This document shows, one piece after another, positions 15,608 through 30,727 of a DNA stretch of 64,000 nt (position 1 is the stretch's first letter; every line of letters begins with the position of its first letter). The translations under genes were made by a program, and so were the position numbers. The notes beneath the pieces were generated by a model. The model saw only the letters and a list, made by a program, of their open reading frames with translations. It was not told where the DNA came from and made no database searches. The DNA comes from Tilletiaria anomala UBC 951 (taxonomy: Eukaryota > Basidiomycota > Exobasidiomycetes > Georgefischeriales > Tilletiariaceae). Where the stretch lies: assembly GCF_000711695.1 (NCBI RefSeq), contig NW_013546961.1, positions 42,953 to 106,952 of the forward strand, read 5' to 3'.

Positions 15608-18600
15608 ATGACTGGTTCTAACTCACCATTTCAAAATGCATGCGAATCGCCGGACTTGCAATTCGCCATGGACTTGAGCGAGGGCGGACGCCGCACAGAT
15701 ACCGACCGCACTGAACGTCTGGGGAGGCAAGCCATTTCCTTTGACCGTGATGGGTTCACGAAACTTCGGGAGAGGCTATCAGGTAAGCTACGCCCTTTTT
15801 GAGAATTGAGAAACATTCTCTGACGGAGGCGCCTTCTAACAGCGATGGACGTTCGCGGCGAAGGGATCGCATCGTCGACAACCACACAATCTCTTATACA
15901 CTCAATATCACACAACTCGACTTCAGTGCTCTCTCTTGCTGTTGATGCCGAAAACGAGCTGATCTTCAGCGGATCCCAGGGCGAATGCATCTATGTATGG
16001 GACCTACATACTTACTTTCCCAGAGCCCGACTCGAAGGCCACACCTCTTCAGTCCTAGCGCTGGAGTTTGCTCCCGAAAGAAGTTGGCTTTTCAGTAGCA
16101 GCGGGGACAACACGGTGCGAATTTGGGACACAAAATCTCTGAAGCCCATCTACGTCGTATACCCGGCTGACGACAATGTTGGCGATATTTTTGCGCTGAA
16201 ATGGTGTGAGGAGTTGGAAACGCTCTTTCTCGGGTGTCAGAACACGTCGATACAGTGGATCAGCTTTACCGGTGCAGACCCATCGCGGTCAGCTGGTGTC
16301 AAAGAGGACACTAGCACCAAGCAGCACCCTGCTTTCTCTGCACCGCTTGGAGAGAGCAAGGGCACGCCTTTCGACACGCCGATACACAAGCCCAACAAAT
16401 TCTTCGATGGGGCCCCACTGTCCATGCGGCGAACAACCTTGGCAAGCAACGCAGGAGCTACGCCGTCAAGACACCAGACGGAACTCATCAGTCATGCATC
16501 CATCCTTCCAACAATACCGGCGGAGTCTGAGCCTGAGGCTGAAGCTGTGCAACTTTCGAGCAGATGCATTGTCGCAAGCGCGCATTACGGGTACATTTAC
16601 GCCTTGGAGCTCGTGCGACTTTCACCGGACAAGCCTCTGGTACTGATAAGCGGGTCAGGCGACGAAGACATCAAGCTATGGCAGGTTGAGTCGCCTTCGC
16701 CCGACCGACCTTTCGGTGGCTTGCATCACCTCGCAACTCTCCACAATTCAGAGGCGGGTGTCCTAGCGCTCGCTACCTGGCAGAGCACTCTCTTTGCAGG
16801 CCTTCAAGGTGGACATGTCGATGTCTGGGACCTGGAGACTCTGACAGTGCTGAGGACGCTCAAGGCAGGTAGCGATGATGTGCTATCACTCAGCGCGTTG
16901 AGAGCCTCTGGCTTAAAAGGGTCGTCCTCGGTCATGTTCACAGCCTGCGCAGATGGCACTGTCAAGCGTTTTGATGCTCGATTCCGCTGCACAGCTGAGT
17001 GGAAAGCTCATGATGGTGTAGTACTGTGTTCTGTGATTGCGATGCGTCCCGTTTCTCAGCAAGCCTCATCATCTCACTGCTTAGCGACGGAGGCACGGCT
17101 GCTTACAGGGGGTTCGGAATCACTGCTCAAAATCTGGAATATCTCAAGCAAAAACTCGCTTTGCAGCCAAGTACCCACGTCGGCTGCGCACGCAATCCTT
17201 GGCACATCGTTCGAAAGCCTCTCCGGCACGCCGGGAACTCCAACGTCAGGCGCGGACTTCAAAGTGTTGAGCAAAGAGCAAAGCGATGCGATGCTGGTGC
17301 GGTCTCTCTCCGACTTTGTCGGCTTCCAGAGCGTCAGCAGCGAAGACACGCGGGAGCAATGCAGGCAGTGCGCTCTTTGGCTGAAGAACTGCCTGACAGA
17401 GCTGGGTGCAGAGGCCAAGATCATTGCCGGCGCGCCACATCGGAACCCGCTCGTCATGGCCACGTTCCGCGGCAGATCGTCCCTGCAGGAAGCTGGTTTA
17501 TCCGGTCCTGCCGCCGCGAAGCAGAAGAAGAGAAAGCGTTGTCTGTTCTACGGACATTATGACTGCATTGGAGTGGACGGGCGGAAGTGGGAATCGGATC
17601 CTTGGACCATGGTGGGGCGAGACGGGTATCTATACGGCAGAGGTGTAAGCGATAACAAGGGACCAACGTTGGCGGTCGCGTACGCTGCGAGTCAGCTGCT
17701 TAGTCGACGAGAATTAGAAAACGATTTGGTTATGCTGATAGAGGGCGAGGAAGAGCGAGGCAGCGTCGGCTTCAAAGAAGCACTCATGAAGGCCAAAGAG
17801 GAGATCGGCCCTATTGTGAGTTGGATCAACTGGAGTTTGAGCTGGTCCTCAATGAATGCTGATCATCTCTTTCCGACCAGGACGTCGTGCTCTTGTCCAA
17901 TTCGTACTGGCTTGGAGAGGACAATCCGTGCATGACGGTTGGCCTACGTGGTGTGGTTCGCGCGACTGTCCGGATATCGGGACGCATGTCAGATGTGCAC
18001 TCTGGTGTTGAAGGTGGTGCTGTGCGCGAGCCAATGGTCGATGTAAGCGAATGCGTGGCGAAAGGCGAAGAGAAATATCCCTTGCTCATATTGGCTGATC
18101 ATGGCCATTTCCCCGACTGCAGATGATTAATCTGCTCAGCCAAGCCTCAACAGGCGACAAGGTATTAATCCCGCAATTCTACGACGCAGTGCGCGTAGTT
18201 ACGCCAGCCGAGCGGGAATTCTACGCCTCGATCGCAAAAATGAACCAATCAAGAGCGCGCAACGCCGAGGACTTGATCGCTCGTTGGCGTCTTCCGACGT
18301 TTAGTGTTCATGGCATCGAAGTCAGTGGGCCGGGTAACAACACTGTGATTCCCAACACAGTCGAAGCGGCCGTGAGCATTCGCATTGTGCCCGATCAGTC
18401 CCTCAAGAAGGTCACTGCGTCGCTCATTAGCCACATCGAAAGCACGTTCAAGCAGCTCCATTCGTCCAATGAGCTCTCTGTTTCCATCGACCATTCGGCC
18501 GATTGGTGGTCCGGTAAGCAGGACTCGCCGTTTGCGATGGCACTCGCCAAGGCGATCGAGGAGGAGTGGAACCAGTCGCCGGTGAAGATCTGTGAAGGAG

Positions 18601-18889
18601 GGGTGAGTTGCTTTTAGATGGTCTCGCGAACAAGCGCATGCATCGCTCGAATGAGTAGCCACTGACTGATTCTGCACTGCCCGAACAACTATGATTGCGA
18701 CGCGCATTGCAATAGTCAATCCCAGCGGTTGCCATTCTGGAGAAGGAACTCAATGCGCCAGCCGTGCATCTGCCTATGGGCCAAGCCTCGGACAGCGCGC
18801 ACTTAAGCGACGAGCGCATGCGCTTGCTGAACCTGCAGAAGGGCAAAGCGGTGCTTTCGACATTTTTTAAGAGTCTACCGTCTTTGTAA
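15608..18889 (+). CDS. DUG2: WD40/M20 di- and tripeptidase subunit Dug2
   Basis: Five exons (15608..15782, 15843..17815, 17881..18042, 18123..18602, 18716..18889) give 987 residues. Dug2 with Dug3 forms the cytosolic amidotransferase-like complex that opens glutathione at its gamma-glutamyl bond; Dug1 then cleaves Cys-Gly. The N-terminal half is a WD40 propeller (repeats ending in YVWDLH, RIWDTK, KLWQVE, DVWDLE, KIWNIS). The C-terminal half is an M20 metallopeptidase: metal-binding H630 and D632 in FYGHYDC, DNKGP, and the catalytic EGEEERGS, then dimerisation-domain blocks (DVHSGVEGG, PNTVEAAVSIRIVPDQS). Downstream splices join conserved sequence such as KICEGG to SIPAVAILEKE. The fusion of these two domains is diagnostic of Dug2 and the length fits fungal members. 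Confidence 0.93.
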
Positions 18890-19079: not shown

Positions 19080-21084
19080 TTACAGATCAACAGCAACGAG
19101 CACGAGTCCTTTCGCAGGAACGAGCCCTTCCACGCCCGGCAGACACTTCGTCGACAGTTCATTCTCCGACTCTTCCGACACGATGACGGCGTCGCCTACC
19201 GCGTCTTCGTCACCCTCTCCGTCGCCCCGTCCCACGAGGTCGCCACATTCGGAAGAACCAGAGGAGCCGACAAGCGTCGTGCCTTCCTCGACTGAGCCGC
19301 TGAAGTTGCTGTTGCTCGACATGCTGCTGGTGGGCGATCCGAAGCGCGCCATGGCAGTGGACGACACCAGGCTCTCTTTGGAGCGCATTGATATCGATAC
19401 GCCCGCACCCGTTGCCCTCGCCGTCGCAGTGGCAGAAGCAGTGCCAGGCCCATAGCTGACGACCTGCCCGCCGACGTAGCACAGGCCATGCAGCAGGCTC
19501 TTGAAGTCGCGCGTCGTGTGGCGCTCGACGCATATGACGACTTTTTCGCAACCAAGTTTCTCGCTGGCGTGGTCGAGCACGCTGAGCAGCGACTCGCGCA
19601 GGTGCGGCGGCAGTGTCGCGTCGTTGTTTGCGGGGCTGTGGCTGGCACTGGCGCGGCTGGACATGATGCTGGGAGGCAAGGTGGAGGAGGACATGCTAAC
19701 ATCGTTGCTGTGCGCATAGGCGAAGGGAGCATCAGTGCCGGCGCTGTTTTTGACGGCAGATGAAGTAACAGTAGGCGGCAGAGATAGGTATAGTGTACGG
19801 CGCATCTCTCCCTCTCCCTCTTCATCCCCTTCATCACGCTCCACTTCGGTCTCATCTTCATCTTCAGCTCCGGCGGCAGCGCTGACGGAGGAGACAAGCG
19901 GGACGGCGAGAACGGCACCGCGCCAATCTTTGCAGACGAGCTCGACCGACGCATCCTCCACGACGATTGTCTTGCGAGTGGAGCTAGACATAGAGGCCGA
20001 CTTGGACTTGCGCAACCGTGCGAGCCGCTCGTTGGCGCGCTCCAGCTTGAAGCGCGGGAAGACGGTGCGCATGAATGCCAGGGCCACGCGCGCCGGGTCG
20101 TGCTTGACGTCTAGCACGATCTCGTCGGCCGACGACATGATCGACGGCGTTGCGTTCGGGGTAGGGGGCATGAGGCCCGCAACCCCAGCCGTAGCGCTGG
20201 CGCTGGCATCCGTCCGGTTGCTCAGGTTCGTGTGCTTTGTGGTTGTTTTTGCTTGCTGTGTAGCGGGTGCAGCTGTGATGGCGACGCCACGCAGCGTCTC
20301 GGTCAGGTAGTTCTGGTTCTTCTGTTTGTGCTCGTCGTGGCGGCTGCTACTACTGCGGCTGCTGCTATGGCTGCTGGCACTGCTCGCTCGTCTGGCGCGA
20401 TCATCGCGATGCAGGATGTCTCGAGCTGCTTCGCTTGCCGCATGGTGCTGTCGGCCTCTACCATGGCCTCCGAGCTCGTCATATACTGCCCATGCGGCTG
20501 TGGCGAACGCTGTGCTTGGACTGGCAGCTGCTGTGGCCGCGGGCAAAGGCGCGCGGGTGCACAGCGAGGGAGAGGCGGGGTTGGAGGATGGTGGCGTGGC
20601 AGGCGGTGAAGCGGGTGAGGGAGTGGAAGCGATTGCTTCATGGATGACGACGGGCGCATGCCTTGCGGATGCAGGAGCTCCGTCGCTCATCGGCCTGCCA
20701 TTCTTCATGCAGGCCTCCTTCTTGACCTGTCCGTCGGTGTGCACTTTATCGAACTGGCCAAGCTTGTCCGGCGAAGGTGAGTACGACGTAGCCCCTCTCA
20801 CAGGCCCACGTCGACCTGGCGCATTTGTTGTGGCGCCAGGAATTTCATCGGGAGTCACGTCAAAAGCACCACTTGACGACTCCATCTGGCGTAGTGCTGC
20901 TGCCGCTTCTGGAGCCACGGGTAGCGCCAGACTCGAGGGCAGAGAGGTCGGAGCGGGAGCTGGCGATGGCGCTGTTGTTCTTGTTGTTACTTCCCGTCAT
21001 GATGTCGTTGCTGACGGTGCTGTCGCCGGCACCCTTGCGATTGTTATAATGGACGGGATTGGTTGTATTGGATCTCAAAGTCAT
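19080..21084 (-). CDS. OAZ1: Ornithine decarboxylase antizyme, +1 frameshift gene
   Basis: The product needs two reading frames. ORF1 runs from ATG 21084 to a TGA at 20862-20860 (74 residues) and ends ...GVVKWCF. A TGA in frame just upstream of the ATG confirms the start. Reading TTT, skipping the T at 20862 and continuing at GAC 20861 enters ORF2 (593 residues, stop at 19080), for 667 residues in total. ORF2 has the antizyme core: VCKDWRG and LYLSLP, then SLLSVLDHASEKLGCEKVVIC and FKSLLHGLCYVGGQVV, matching the beta-sheet core that binds ornithine decarboxylase and sends it to the 26S proteasome without ubiquitin. The Trp-Cys codons before the stop parallel the TGG TGC TCC TGA site of vertebrate antizymes, and TTT as the last codon is used in some invertebrates. 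In the family, polyamines raise frameshifting and so close a feedback loop. Long Ser/Ala-rich insertions make this one about three times the usual length. Confidence 0.9.
20860..20871 (-). promoter_or_regulatory. Programmed +1 ribosomal frameshift site
   Basis: On the minus strand the end of antizyme ORF1 reads TGG TGC TTT TGA followed by C. The slow UGA-C stop and the slip from TTT to the +1 frame are expected to be stimulated by polyamines. The second frame is open for 593 codons from exactly this point, which is the direct sequence evidence. No strong 3' pseudoknot is obvious by eye. Confidence 0.85.
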
Positions 21085-21688
21085 ATTGGGAAGTCAACGT
21101 GGCGACTGTCCTGCTGGGCTTCGGGCAATGGTAGGCTCGGAGTATAACGATGGGATGGAGTACAGCGGGAGCTGCAGTGATGTCCTAGGCTGAATATGAG
21201 CGTTGCTTTAGACTTGCGCGTTTGAGTGCGTATGAAGGAGCCCGATTTCTAAAGGTCTGAGTACCTACGATGACGACGACAATGGCAACGACGACGAAAG
21301 AGGAGGTCCAGCCCGGATGAGACAGGACCTACATGATTTACAAAAAATGCAGAAATTGAATGCACAAGGACGTTACTGCACCCGACGGTCGGCCAGTCCC
21401 TCGTGCAGCCACGCGCACCCGGAGCGATGGGGAATGAACGAAAGCGGAGGTTTAGTTCGCTCACTTGCAACCCAAAGAGCGCTTCCCAAGGGAATTTATC
21501 GTTCGATGGATTGAATCTCGCAGCTGCCCGAAGGAGAGGCCTGTTCTTCGCGTGACCAGGCTGTCCATGCTATTGCTTCGAGCAAGCAAGTTAGAATTGG
21601 CTACTCACCTCGTCGCCGCCAAGCAGAGCAGAGTAGAGCAGAGCAGAGCAGCCCTCCAGATCCTAGCGATCCAACGTCTTGTGCAACT
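21085..21688. promoter_or_regulatory. Divergent promoter OAZ1/SUI3
   Basis: This 604-nt spacer separates divergent genes and should hold both promoters and 5' UTRs. The only distinct structure is an AGAGC-type short tandem repeat directly upstream of SUI3 (listed separately). No coding potential is seen. Confidence 0.5.
21622..21652 (+). repeat. AGAGC pentanucleotide repeat in SUI3 5' leader
   Basis: About six imperfect tandem copies of AGAGC/AGAGT occupy this stretch and end 36 nt before the SUI3 start codon, so they are probably transcribed in the 5' UTR. Confidence 0.8.
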
Positions 21689-23223: not shown

Positions 23224-26200
23224 TCAGCGCTGCTGTTCGCTCGCGGATATCCCGATCGTCGAGAGGCGTGGCGTGGCGGCAGTGGACGCCGGTGCGTGTC
23301 TGAACTGCTGCTCAAACGACTCGACGCCGCCGCCGAGGACGCCAAAGTTGTCCTGTGCGATGCGGCCTAAGTGCTCGAGCTGCTCAATGACCTCCTTCAT
23401 TGCGAGCGCGTACGAGTAGAACAACAGGTACTCCGTCCCTCCGCGCACCTGCCGCTTGCGCACGACCGGCAGCGCGCGGATACGCTCCAGCAGTGCCTTG
23501 CGCGCCGCATTTGCCGCGGGCAAGTACGGCGGCAGCGGGCTCTTGAGGTGGAACGCGCTGCCGAGGATGTAGAAATACAACAGCACGTTGCCGACCATCT
23601 CTCGCCGGTACGGGTTGACCGGAATGACAAAGTCGCGCCGTACCAGGTGATGCCACGCATCCCGACCCGTGACGCAGCGCATGCTGTGCAGCTTGTCTAA
23701 TATGCTCTGGCAGCTGTTGATCATCGCTTTGTACTTGGCGATGGGGAATGGCCCTGCAGAAAGGAGAAAGATTGGACGAGCACGTCAGCTTAATGTAACA
23801 AGAAGTTTCTTGTTTTTCCAGCAGGCGATGCTACTCACCTTTCAGACGCGGCTCATGCTTGGTCTGCACAAGCAGCCCTTCCAGTCGAATAATTGCTACT
23901 TGCAACTGCAGCTCCCTGCAGAGCGAAAGAGGCGAATTAGCGAAGTGATTTCCATCCGTCAGAATATGAAAGGCGACAGAAGACTCACAAAGGCTGGAAT
24001 TGGTCTCGCTGCCTAGAGCCTTCATCCGGGGCCAGCAGCGGCCGGCTCTCCTCATCCCCTTCCCAATCGTGCTGCGGCATCGTCGCTGGCCGGTCCGGTG
24101 GTTCTGCCGAGTAGCTAAGCACAAGACGCTGATAAAGGTAGGAGAGTTTGAACATGAGGTCCGCCATACCCTCCGCAAGTTGCCTTCGTGCCTCCATGGG
24201 CCAGACGAGATGTGTGAGCAGCGAAGCCCACGTGACGCCAATGATGACGGAGATCATGCGCTTGATCGCGATTTGCTCCACTTCGATCCCGAGCTTGCGC
24301 AGGTTGTAGCTGTACAGTGCCGTCAAATTGTACGTCAGCAGGACGAAGCGGCCTGCCGATGCGTGCTGGGGTTTGGCCACGATCGCCCAAAAGCACGGGA
24401 CGGAGAAAAGCGCGCCAAAGATTGGCAGCGCGACGTTGTTATCCGGGAAGAGCGTATAGGCGGTGTAGGCTGCGCCGGCTCCGATCACTGTCCCAGCAAT
24501 GCGCTGGAAACTCATCTGGTTGCTCTGGCCCACGGTGGGTGACATGACGATCATGTAGCTCACAAGCGCCCATTGGCCCTGGTAGTCCTTGAAGATGGGA
24601 CGTGTGGCATGGATAAACGCGGGCGCTGCCATGAGCGCAGCGCCAACACCCGTCTTGATGGAAAACTTGATATCGGGCCTCCGCAGAAAGTTGCCAAGAG
24701 ACCAAATGACGCGCGACATGCGCATATTCAATGTATCTGCCGCAGGCGTTTGGCCGGTGTTCACTTGGTGTGGCCGGTAGTCTGGGAAGGTGACCTGAGG
24801 CTCCTTCATTTTTCGCCTTCCCTGTCTGCAGCTGTGCCTCCTGCCACGCAGACTGAAGGAGGGCATGCTGTCGCAAGTACATAAAGATTTCAGCCATTGT
24901 TGCATAGGCATTGCCCTGCGCCGGACTATGCGCTCCTCTTGCTGACGGATCTGTTCCAGTGCAGCAGTGAGATACTGCAATTCTTTTGCGAACTCCTCCA
25001 AGTTGAAGACAAAGAAAAAGACAAGGAAGACCTGCTCATCCGGCATGATCTCTTCGTCGGCCAAGCTTTTCGTCGCTCTTGCGACAGCCTCCAGCTGATC
25101 GACGGACCTGCATTCGTCATACATAGTGTTCTCGTAAATCCGTTTGATCGAAATGCTCTGCTCGTGACGAAAACGCTCAAGAGCAAGACGAACGTCCTCA
25201 GATAGCAACGTGAAGCTACTGCCTGGAATGTAGTGGTTGTGTTGTGGCGGCTGCGTGGCGGTACTGGCAAAAGAAGCCTCCCGGGCAACATTGTGTTGTT
25301 CGTTCCCGCGAACCTCTGGTAGTGCCACGTCGCCTGCCGTCAAGAAAGCGGAGCGCAGATTGCGAAGTGTGCGACTGCTTGTGAACTGCAGATGGAGGAC
25401 AAATCAAAAGCGACAATCGGCCAAACATATCAGCATGCGCAAAGGGCTACAGCGTGGCGAGACTACGCAGCACCACTCACAACCAAGCTGCGCATATGTG
25501 GACCAATGAACTGCACAAAGTCGCCGAAAGCGTCTGTCCTAGCTTTCCACTGTCCATCATTGTCAGCGTCAACCTCTGCCTCTCCAGCAGCGAACGGATC
25601 TTCTCCTCCCGCCTCTGGTCGGCGCGCAGCAGCTTCACTTTCCATTGCAGCTTGCTTCGCCGCCGCTGCCGTTGCCTCCTTCTGCTTGGAGATGATCCTC
25701 TGTTGCAAGCCACAGCTACTCCTGAGACCGCCGAGATGCTGCGCGAGGCGGTTCATGCTGCCGACGACGTCGGCATAGCGGGCGGGCGCCTGGCCTCGCA
25801 TGCGTGCGTCGAGCATGCGTTCCATCTGCGCCTCGCGTAGGTTTTTCTTGAGCGAAGTGAAACTGGTGTGGTGGTCGTCGATTGCCTGCTTGATGCGCTC
25901 GCTGTCAAGGCTGAAGTTCCGCGGGTCGTCCAACAAGAAGGTCTTGGTGAGCACCTTGAGCAAGGTCGCGAAGCCGGTCAAGTTGCGCCTAATATCTGCT
26001 TGCAGTGCCTTTGTGGCGCTCTGCGGGCCGATGGCAAAGCAAATGAGGTTGGAGATGAACACGCCGCTGATGACACAGATGGTCACTTGCAGGCTCTTGT
26101 CGCTCGAAAAGCGGCCGAGGTGCGCGGCGCCTTCCTTGATCATGACGGTGAAGACGACAATGCCGATCATGCTGCAGGCCGTGTTGAATGACGGGCTTGC

Positions 26201-27994
26201 CATGCGCACTTTTGCCCACGCCATAAACCCCATTCCCCCGCCGAGGAAGATGGAGACGATGAGGAAGTTTGACAGCAGCGCAAGATCGAGGTTGTGCAAG
26301 AAGACAGCGGTGAGCATCGACAGCGTGGTCAACAGTAGAGAGTAGACAAATCCGACCAGGGCATACATGTCTGCCTCGAGCATGGCGCCGAGCGTCTTGG
26401 CGGGGTGGAAATAGACTGAAACAGTAGCGATCATGTGCAGATTGGAGATTGGCACCTTTTTGTCCGGGTCGTGATTTGGAAGCAGCATAGCGAGCCGCCT
26501 AGACAGCACGGGGGAAAAGGTACACAGCGAAGCGAGAAAGTATGCGATAAAGCATTTGAGCAGTCCGCGTTGGAGATTTGTGAGCCTGATTCCTCCGCCC
26601 ACAGTCAAGTGATGTTGCACCCACGCACGCGCTCGGTAAAGGACGCCGCGCAAGCTCTCTTGCTCGGCGAGCTTACGACGCTGATCTTGTCGCTGTAGCA
26701 GCTCTTCCTCTGCATCCGCTTCGAGCAGTGTCTTTGCTTCTGGGACGTAGGCAAGCGGATCTTCACAGGCTGGGATCGCCGATGGTGTCAGGATGTCGAG
26801 GTAGGAGACCGGTTCGGATGTGACCAACTGCGCTGCTTCTTCGATCTCTCTTTCTGGATCCATTCCGCTGTCATTGTCTGCATCGGTAGAAGTAGCTTCA
26901 GAAGCGCTGATGCTACCAATTGCAGCGCCCTTCCGCTTTGGAGGCGATAACAGCCTCTTGAAAGCGCCTTTAAGCAGGGGAGTCCGGTTCGAGGTTCCGG
27001 GGCTGCTCTGGCCATTGCTGCCTCTTGCCGGCTCCTCAGATGTGAAGGGATACCCGCGACCAGCCAGAGGAGCGTGATGCCATGAAATCGATTTTTTCTG
27101 CTCGAGGCTACGGGCTTCAGAGCGTTCCTCTTCGACTTCGACTTGGGCGCTTTGGTCGCCTTGTTCCAGCAGGTGCGCAATGCTTTGCCACTGGTCTGCG
27201 TGCCGCGCCGTCCCCCCCGACCGCTTGGAAGCGCGACATTGGCCGATCGACGCAGACTTGGAGAGCGCCGTGGCTAAAGACGGACGGGTACTGGAGGAAA
27301 AAGAAGCATTTGGAGTCGAAGAGAGAACTGGGAGAGAGGACGAAGCCGTCGCACCCGTGGGCCACGAGGCTGAGCCCTCGATAACCGGTTCTGCGCGAAA
27401 CGATGAAGCAGATGCAGTCGAAGAGTGCAGCTGCGGCGGAAAGTTTGCACGAGCGGCAAGGCTGTTGCTATCCTGAGCATGGTTGTGGACGCTTCCTCCC
27501 ATGTCCGATGTCAGAGCAGTGCTCAATCTACATCGCTGCCGCCTTCGAATCTCTCGCTGCTCACGAACGAGTCGCTGCTCCTCGGCCTGTTCGTCTTCCT
27601 CCAAATCATTTTGCGCATCGTGCGCGTCCAACACGGGACTGAGCCCATCATCATCTAGGCGCATGTAGTCGTCCTGATCTCTGTCCTTTTTGGCAGTTGA
27701 AGATGACGAAGTATAATCAGGGCGCAATGGGGTCGGAAGCTGCAGATGAGCAGTAGCAGCTACGGTACTGCATACAGCGGACCATAATGCTGTGTGCCGT
27801 CTGCGTGGGCTTTGTTGAGGTGCAGAAGTGACAGACCGATCGTTCAGATCAGTCGAAGGCAGGTCTGATCGATGAGCAGGACCGTGGTTTCCCCAATCGA
27901 ACACACCTCCCGGTCCCGGGGTCGCAGTAGAGGCAGGCAGAGCATGTGTATGTTCCAAGCGGGCTGTGGCGTCATAAGAAGGCAGAGAAGCCAT
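23224..27994 (-). CDS. ArAE_2_N/FUSC/DUF2421 multipass membrane protein
   Basis: Four exons (27994..25481, 25385..23989, 23915..23839, 23753..23224) give 1505 residues. The architecture is that of fungal 'putative ER transporter' proteins annotated with ArAE_2_N, FUSC-like and DUF2421 domains. A disordered N-terminus of about 450 residues precedes a first cluster of about six helices (GLLKCFIAYFLASLCTFSP onward), then a long helical cytosolic stretch, then a second cluster (FSIKTGVGAALMAAPAF, WALVSYMIVMSPTVGQSNQM), and a C-terminal DUF2421 region. The 77-nt third exon rebuilds LELQLQVAIIRLEGLLVQTKHEPRLKGPFP, a conserved phrase of the family, which supports the splicing. Some relatives are described as brefeldin A sensitivity-related; substrate and location are not established. 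A short Cys/Arg-rich stretch near 24800-24870 could hide an unrecognised intron. Confidence 0.88.
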
Positions 27995-30727
27995 GACTCT
28001 ATACCTGTATCAAAATTGTGGACGGAACAGGAGGTTGAAGCAAATACCGTGAGCTGGAGGGTGCGTCGTTTCTGACGTATAAATCGTCCTCGCACGGTGC
28101 GAACGAAGCCAGCTTCGAGCTATTTTCGGGCTGGGGCATCCTACTTCACGCAGCAGAGACTGGAGCCAAGTACATTGTCCCAGTAGGCACAGGCATTGCA
28201 GCGCTAGTCAGATCACCATATGCGCTGCTTCGCGGTATCGCTTGGCGTGGAGCGGTGCCGCTGATCGCTGACGCCACACTCGCATCAGTCAGCCTCGAAG
28301 CACGCCTGACAGGGAACATCAACGTCACTTGGTAAGAGGTGCAGGACGAGCACAACCCTACCCACGCCAAGATTTTCCGCTGCTCTTGGTCGATGCATAT
28401 GAGTGAGCGTGGAGGCTGCCAACGGAAAAGGCGCGAACCAGCACTAAGTAGCACCACCATGTCAGGGGTCGGCTGTTGACCATCGAAGATCGTTGGACTT
28501 GCCTTCCGCAAGCTGAAAGTAAGTGCGAGGTTCGGTGCAACCAAGGGTGGGTGCTGGATGCTTGGTCTGGTGGCTCGAGCGTATGCCTCTTGGGAGACCT
28601 TTTAATCGTACGAAAACCCTCGAGGATGAGACCTTCCATTTGCCTTGTTGGACTGATTCACTGCCGTTTCCTATGTAAAGAAGGGACCTATGATGCGATG
28701 ATGGATATACGCATCGGCGAAGCAGGCTGTTTCCAAAAGCTTCCCCAGCCAACAGCGTGCTCGCTGGTCGGCGCTTATCGCCTGTTAGCGCTCACACTCA
28801 GGCGGGAGCCGGGCGGGCGAACCTCGGGTCTGTGCGTGCGACGCGTGACTTCCTGCGCGACGTGAAAACTGACATCACACAAAAAACGTATGCACTTCCG
28901 TTCTGTGGTATGCGGACTCGCCTCTCTTCGCGCAATCTTCGTTTTTGCCAATCGCAAGAGACGACAGAACCTTTGCGAGTTGCAACACCAGAGAGTACAT
29001 TATTTACAGAGTACTTCGAATGCGATATTAGAATTGTCGATTTGTGAGGTGCTACAAACCTCAGAGCCGCAGGTCCCGCTTCGTGTACATTCCGTGGTTC
29101 TGTCCCTGTGTTGAACTGTAGCGGTACGGCAGGACTTCATTGGCGTGTCCTGCTCCGCTTTCCACCCTCGCGGGGGAGTGTGAGGGAACATAGCCGAATT
29201 GGGTCCTGAAGGCACTGGGGGGGTGGCGCGTTGCTAGGCATGTTCAGACTATCGCAATGCTGTAGGCGACGAAAAATTCTTTCGCTGATCAAAGCTTGGC
29301 AAAATTAGCTGAATCTTGTTGTCCTTGATCCTGCAGCCCAGAAAGTCGCCGATCGTTTATCAGAAATTTGAGCCTCCCGATGCTTGGACTTCGAGGGCCG
29401 TTCTGAGAGCGATGACGATGGCATCGCTGGTAACACTCATCAAAAAGCCCTTTCATATCATATCGAGGTCAGGGCCGCTCTTGTCGCCAATCAGGACAGT
29501 CCATGCTTTCGGAAGGGTCTTGCGAGGAGTTTCTCCGAGGCAAAGTGTCGCCTCCGTCCAATTGTCGACCCCGAGAATGATGCTGACTGGCGCAACTCGA
29601 TTGTTGCTCGCAGTTTGTTGTCAATCTCATCATCCTCCGCTTTTGACTTTCGGCTCAGGGTTGCAGGCAGCGCAGATGCGATATGTGAACGCTCCCGGTC
29701 GCCTCGCCCGTTTGTGAAATGGCCCAAAGTCACTTTTGCCATTGTATATAGCTTGTAGCTTCTCGCGTCGAGGTTGTATATGTTGTATTGGATGGTCCAA
29801 AGAAGCCCATCGCTGTAGAGAGAGTATCAAGACACTGTAGACTTTCGTCCAGATCCTTATCAAAGACTTTTGAGTTGTGAAGATTCTTCGATTCGACCGT
29901 GAGGTGATCCCACGACCGCGGGATGCAGCGGAGTGCATGCTGCAGCCGAGGATTGAACATTTCCCAGTTGCCTTCGTTCAGCGGGAGTAAGGTGAAAAGG
30001 ATGCGATAGAATTTTGCAATTGCTCTTCAAGGCTGACCTCCCTCTGTCTTGTTTTGCTGCTTCGCCCCAAGGTAGCACTAGGCATGCTCCACGTTTCGCT
30101 GTTTCGTTTCACTTGAAGTTGAACTTCGTCATGGACATTGACGGAAGTGTCCCAATCCGCATACCTTTTGTCGCGCTGTCGAGCAGTCTCTGTTTCATCG
30201 CCACGATTCGCCTGTTTTCGAACTTTTTCACCTCGTTGGAGTTTAAGCTGTCGATTGTGCTCAAAATGCCATCTGAGCACTTCTGGCGGAATCTTGAGAC
30301 GTTCAAACGGTATGTGTGCACCCTAAGGTGTCCGCAGCGCGAATATCCTATGCGCATAAGAGCAATCTACGCCTTGTCTGCACGCATTTTATGGAAGGAA
30401 GAAACAAAGATTCCTCTTGAAGAGATCGAAAGTCACACGCTTCCCGCTCGCAGCGACCAATGCATGGTGCTGGTCAGACGGGAAGCGCTGATGACTGCGA
30501 GCGAGCCTCTTCAAGAGTGGTTCTTCACCGTGCCTTTCGGGGAATGCTGAACGCCTTCGGGAAGATCTGGTCGCAGGAACACAACAATCAGTTGGTTTGT
30601 ATTATGCTGTCGCCCCTCCGAGCTTGATCACTTACACCCGTTCGAACAGGCTATCACTCTTGCCTTTTTCTGACTCGTCCTGCTGGTTTCCTGCAAAGAT
30701 GGCATCTATGTTCGCTAAGCGGGATCC
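27995..30727. other. Gene-poor stretch with fragmentary ORFs
   Basis: No gene with a recognisable domain was found in these 2.7 kb, and base composition is visibly less GC-rich than the flanks. Three fragments look protein-like but are not complete: a + frame at 28039-28336 ending in NINVTW; a minus frame at 30324-29978 beginning after a TTAG acceptor-like site; and a minus frame of about 100 codons ending at 29730 that overlaps it in another frame. The last two could be a gene broken by a frameshift near 30035. The competing + strand ORF 30131..30550 starts with ATG and has 139 codons. I cannot decide between them by eye. Confidence 0.4.

Follow-up and report, generated by a model that had tools for sequence, protein, structure and literature searches.

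How a single protein could be produced from two overlapping reading frames, the first of which is closed by a TGA only 74 codons after its ATG, is the question raised by this locus on the minus strand of the stretch of DNA analyzed here (64,000 nt in full, and referred to below as the window). Judged from its sequence, the locus is very probably a gene for an ornithine decarboxylase (ODC) antizyme, the functional product of which would need a +1 ribosomal frameshift. Antizyme restrains the level of polyamines in the cell. The reading that best accommodates the evidence is that of an ordinary member of the known family of antizyme genes expressed by +1 frameshifting, which has representatives in other fungi and in animals.

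Two Frames and Their Junction

The initial annotation had proposed a first frame of 74 codons beginning at ATG 21084 and a second, of 593 codons, in the +1 register. Both were re-derived on the minus strand, and the features that define them and their junction are as follows.

20863 to 21084, minus strand: ORF1 of the antizyme, 74 sense codons, with its ATG at 21084 and A at -3 (stop-codon scan and codon usage)
19080 to 20861, minus strand: ORF2, in the +1 frame, 593 codons plus stop, continuous and entered at GAC 20861 after the shift
20860 to 20871, minus strand: shift site and 5' context, TGG TGC TTT TGA, then C; an exact match occurs nowhere else in the window

A second in-frame ATG of ORF1, also with A at -3, is present at 21000. 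On the minus strand, ORF1 ends in AAG TGG TGC TTT and is followed by the TGA at 20862-20860, while the +1 frame is free of stops from 20996 down to its own stop at 19082-19080. Skipping the T of the TGA results in GAC 20861 being read next, with 593 codons before the ORF2 stop, and the predicted ORF1-ORF2 fusion product comprises 667 residues. This is the layout of antizyme genes with a +1 frameshift, namely a short, stop-ended ORF1 and an ORF2 that is open in the +1 frame through that stop. No donor-like motif of the form GTRAGY or GTRNGT occurs within ORF2. On the plus strand, a frame of 278 amino acids is open at 20311-21147, facing ORF1 and the beginning of ORF2; this antisense frame is probably a by-product of composition.

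The 12-mer TGGTGCTTTTGA, at 20871 to 20860 on the minus strand, has a single exact match in the window. With up to two mismatches allowed, eight matches were found compared with a mean of 5.6 in shuffled sequence and, because this count is near the shuffle expectation, the 12-mer alone proves nothing. Being by itself no evidence, its weight is placed instead on its position at the junction between ORF1 and ORF2 of an antizyme gene, which is where the site TGG TGC TTT TGA C had been placed by the initial annotation. The site has the composition of antizyme frameshift sites: a shift-prone codon followed by UGA, with UGG as the second codon upstream. It had further been pointed out that the last sense codon is TTT and not the common TCC. 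The TTT is present as stated, but it is not remarkable in this phylum; UUU-UGA was the shift site in all 35 ORF1 sequences analyzed (34 from Agaricomycetes and one from a Dacrymycete) according to the excerpted text of PMC4505036, and the frameshift of the Ganoderma lucidum antizyme GlAZ is given at 'TTTGA' in that of PMC9604110, so that TTT in place of TCC constitutes no novelty.

Coding Character of the Frames

Codon usage was scored with a model derived from 12 of the window's other ORFs. That ORF1 stays open for 74 codons is unremarkable, as 1515 of 20,000 shuffles were likewise open. Its codon-usage score was 0.127 per codon, a value attained by none of 192 out-of-frame, stop-free windows and by 37 of 203 in-frame windows. 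Over the region in which ORF1 and ORF2 are open together, the scores were 0.101 for the frame of ORF1, 0.025 for that of ORF2, and -0.174 for the remaining one. ORF1 has coding character, with a codon usage like that of the window's other ORFs. With ORF2, its own reading frame was the top-scoring of the three sense frames in each of 11 segments; nine of these were clearly positive, and those of residues 61-150 and 354-370 were about zero.

Identity of the ORF2 Product

The antizyme core that the initial annotation had recognized in ORF2 was confirmed by comparison with Pfam, the match to PF02100 (ODC_AZ) having an E-value of 2.5e-11 and a score of 43.9 bits, above the curated cut-off of 24.2.

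19440 to 19619, minus strand: antizyme core segment, ORF2 residues 415-474, aligned with positions 36-95 of the 114 of PF02100

The only other family listed for ORF2 was LPP20 (E 0.71), below its cut-off. A phmmer search of PDB sequences with a 57-residue core returned four entries up to an E-value of 10, all of them antizymes and all weak (E 0.35-0.88); they are consistent with the assignment as an antizyme and do not constitute independent proof. The same PDB sequences searched with the full ORF2 did not yield the antizymes, and gave a single non-antizyme match (E 0.88) to a low-complexity stretch. Much of ORF2 outside the core consists of low-complexity sequence, and long acidic stretches flank the core. 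An AlphaFold2 model of residues 242-593, built from the single sequence, reached a mean pLDDT of 36.9 and was too poor to use. ORF1 had no match in Pfam, and a search of the whole window at the Rfam gathering thresholds also gave none. Relatives of the gene were sought among prokaryotic and viral contigs and none was found, a result with no bearing on fungi.

A Putative Stimulator 3' of the Shift Site

Downstream of the TGA, within ORF2, the sequence can be folded into a pair of stem-loops which had not been noted in the initial annotation.

20784 to 20845, minus strand: putative 3' frameshift stimulator, consisting of AAAU (20845-20842), U, an 8-bp stem 1, U, and an 8-bp stem 2

Stem 1 starts at 20840, which is 19 nt past the end of the TGA, and the 8 bp of stem 2 include one G-U pair and are supplemented by an inner 3-bp helix. 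A putative stimulator of this kind has been described for basidiomycete antizymes, in which two adjacent stem-loops begin 19 nt downstream of the site and stem 1 is preceded directly by an AAAU that does not vary; the description extends to the Ustilaginomycotina and Pucciniomycotina but not to the Tremellomycetes (PMC4505036). A conserved loop 2 of seven bases also belongs to the published element. The element found here follows that pattern, with two adjacent stem-loops from 19 nt after the TGA. It departs from the description in having a single unpaired U both before stem 1 (after the AAAU) and between the stems, as the AAAU is said in the same excerpt to abut stem 1 and the stem junction to be unbroken in all sequences but one (PMC4505036). 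Apposition of the two Us would reconcile the fold with the published description, but U-U is a non-standard pair.

When 103 nt from the UGA were folded, both stem-loops were present, and nine of 200 shuffles were as stable (z -1.84). The 60-nt segment of the element, which was trimmed to the element only after the 103-nt fold had been seen, has a folding energy of -33.6 kcal/mol, equaled by none of 200 shuffles (z -4.71). Sixty-nucleotide windows as stable as this numbered 19 among 25,576, all with at least 41 G+C compared with 38 in the element; among those matched for G+C to within two, three, and four bases either side, as stable a fold was found in none of 7169, two of 10,077, and five of 13,166, respectively. 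Within the coding sequence, moreover, no 60-nt region folds more stably than the element, the best of 365 non-overlapping sense windows being -29.4 kcal/mol vs. -33.6 kcal/mol. A descriptor of AAAT followed by two stems, with tolerances (gaps of 0-1 nt) that were chosen in knowledge of the fold and of the description in PMC4505036, matched both strands of the window five times at 5+5 bp and twice each at 6+5, 6+6, and 7+6 bp; at 8+6 and 8+8 bp, the antizyme element was the only match on either strand. None of 20,000 shuffles of the 100 nt reproduced the element at 8+6 bp. On the basis of the shuffles, the descriptor counts, and the G+C-matched fold windows, a chance origin of the 3' element was rejected. 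A 31-nt piece in which both stems are incomplete was no more stable than its shuffles (z -0.01), and the terminal 100 or 150 nt of ORF1 showed no 5' RNA structure beyond that of shuffles (z -0.93 and +0.64, respectively). The putative stimulator, a strong element in the published position, lends support to frameshifting as the mode of expression.

The start of the element, comprising AAAU together with the initial bases of stem 1 (20835-20846, minus strand), also encodes Glu-Ile-Pro-Gly. Vertebrate antizymes carry a similar Ile-Pro-Gly near the equivalent place. The conservation of AAAU recorded in PMC4505036 may therefore be exerted partly at the level of protein.

Alternative Explanations

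An interruption of frame by a single base is the appearance typical of a sequencing or assembly error, and one extra base, or decay to a pseudogene, would make the frame break artificial. The break falls precisely at TGG TGC TTT TGA, however, with a family-like 3' element downstream of it, and the 593 codons of ORF2 are uninterrupted and show coding bias, such that an artifact of this sort has next to no probability. The same negligible probability is given to an intron that spans the TGA and joins ORF1 to ORF2 in one frame after splicing. On paper, the frames could be joined by excising any of 91 GT-AG segments 35-499 nt long, but only in two of them is a donor that agrees at three of four loose positions combined with a YAG acceptor; these two are without a branch-like CTRAY motif, and each would take the shift site and the 3' element out of the message. 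A TGA-removing intron was therefore rejected on its splice signals among the GT-AG pairs scanned over that range of lengths.

A different means of bypassing the TGA would be initiation within ORF1, at a codon already in register with ORF2.

20883 to 20885, minus strand: ATG in the ORF2 frame, context CGCCAG ATG GA, eight codons before the shifted GAC

This ATG is a possible shift-free start for ORF2. In such an arrangement, ORF2 would be made by ribosomes that reach AUG 20885 by leaky scanning past two AUGs, and ORF1 would be an overlapping upstream ORF. The codon shares the frame of ORF2, is followed by G at +4, and begins a run of 601 codons; yet, counted from 21084, it comes third among the AUGs, with C at -3 compared with A at -3 in both earlier AUGs, and initiation there would leave unexplained the context of the shift site, the codon bias of ORF1, and the presence of the 3' element at the published distance. 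As the sole origin of ORF2, it is thus considered very unlikely. There is a slim chance that antizyme arises by two routes, a polyamine-sensing +1 shift being accompanied by low-level, shift-free initiation at AUG 20885; were this true, the second route would maintain an unvarying baseline of antizyme not subject to feedback. The initial annotation had expected that automatic annotation would probably call only ORF2 from a false start or split the gene, and for the false start ATG 20885 now supplies a concrete candidate. That it would be taken as a false start in automatic annotation is likely.

Proposed Mechanism of Expression

With frameshifting retained as the preferred reading, the earlier proposal of an antizyme encoded by two overlapping frames and a +1 site is upheld by the ODC_AZ match, the frames, their junction, and the 3' element. 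The shifting itself, its rate, its dependence on polyamines, and the action of the product on ODC are inferred from the known antizyme family, for which slippage in the P site at UGA, the contribution of stimulators, the response to polyamines, and the delivery of ODC to the proteasome are set out in the excerpts of PMC4505036 and PMC5009743. By analogy, ribosomes would start at AUG 21084 and read 74 codons, bringing UUU to the P site and UGA to the A site, where most of them would be expected to terminate. A fraction would slip by one base, from UUU to UUU in the +1 frame (the next base being U), and then decode GAC. Shifting would be made more frequent by UGG UGC on the 5' side and by the two stem-loops on the 3' side, and the shifting fraction would be expected to rise with polyamines. 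The predicted 667-residue antizyme would then bind and inhibit ODC and send it to the proteasome.

Neighboring Genes and Annotation

A Pfam scan of ten neighboring ORFs gave matches for eight of them: WD40 with M20 peptidase, M20 dimerisation, FUSC, Rad10, a diphthamide synthesis protein, an MRC1-like protein, an MS channel with EF-hand, and an MFS transporter. Beside the antizyme gene, at 15824-18617 on the plus strand, WD40 repeats are combined with the M20 peptidase, and the M20 dimerisation domain is found in a separate downstream ORF; the two M20 ORFs are probably split by an intron. The WD40 and M20 gene at 15824-18617 is presumably a Dug2-type peptidase. At 23985-28009 on the minus strand, an ORF of 472 amino acids that matches the FUSC/ALMT families adjoins an ORF of 848 amino acids on the same strand, which has no Pfam match and is partly membrane-protein-like; the two are possibly one gene split by an intron. 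The neighboring genes are in keeping with a fungal chromosome, and the placement of the fungus among the basidiomycetes rests mainly on the shift site and the 3' element.

Standard annotation pipelines cannot recognize antizyme frameshift sites, as stated in the abstract of PMC2375905, and the gene identified here adds to the antizyme genes that would probably be called wrongly by ordinary annotation. It is also a clean case, displaying the shift site along with its 5' context and the two stem-loops on the 3' side. Its use is modest, involving annotation and an additional sequence for the 3' element, and the known picture is unchanged.

Comparison with Known Systems

The gene resembles that of vertebrate antizyme 1 in having TGG TGC before the shift codon and an antizyme core, the latter likeness being seen in the weak PDB matches. 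It differs in the shift codon, which is TCC in vertebrate antizyme 1.

In site and 3' element, there is a likeness to the antizyme mRNAs of the Basidiomycota (Yordanova et al., 2015; PMC4505036), which, in the text excerpted, share with it UUU-UGA (stated for the 34 Agaricomycetes and one Dacrymycete), a +1 shift into a second frame, and AAAU with two stem-loops at 19 nt; the element here differs from theirs by one unpaired U flanking stem 1 at either end. A nascent peptide conserved in the Agaricomycetes is described in the same excerpt as absent outside the Agaricomycetes and one Dacrymycete (PMC4505036). With some basidiomycetes other than Agaricomycetes, UGG takes the place of the codon that adjoins the shift codon (PMC4505036, as excerpted), whereas here UGC is adjacent and UGG lies one codon further upstream. 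GlAZ of G. lucidum is likewise encoded by two ORFs with a 'TTTGA' site and, according to the excerpt of PMC9604110, has a short product of 66 residues, compared with 74 here. Its full-length form is given there as 333 residues (PMC9604110), whereas the 667 residues predicted for the product of the present gene are about twice as many, much of ORF2 being low-complexity sequence.
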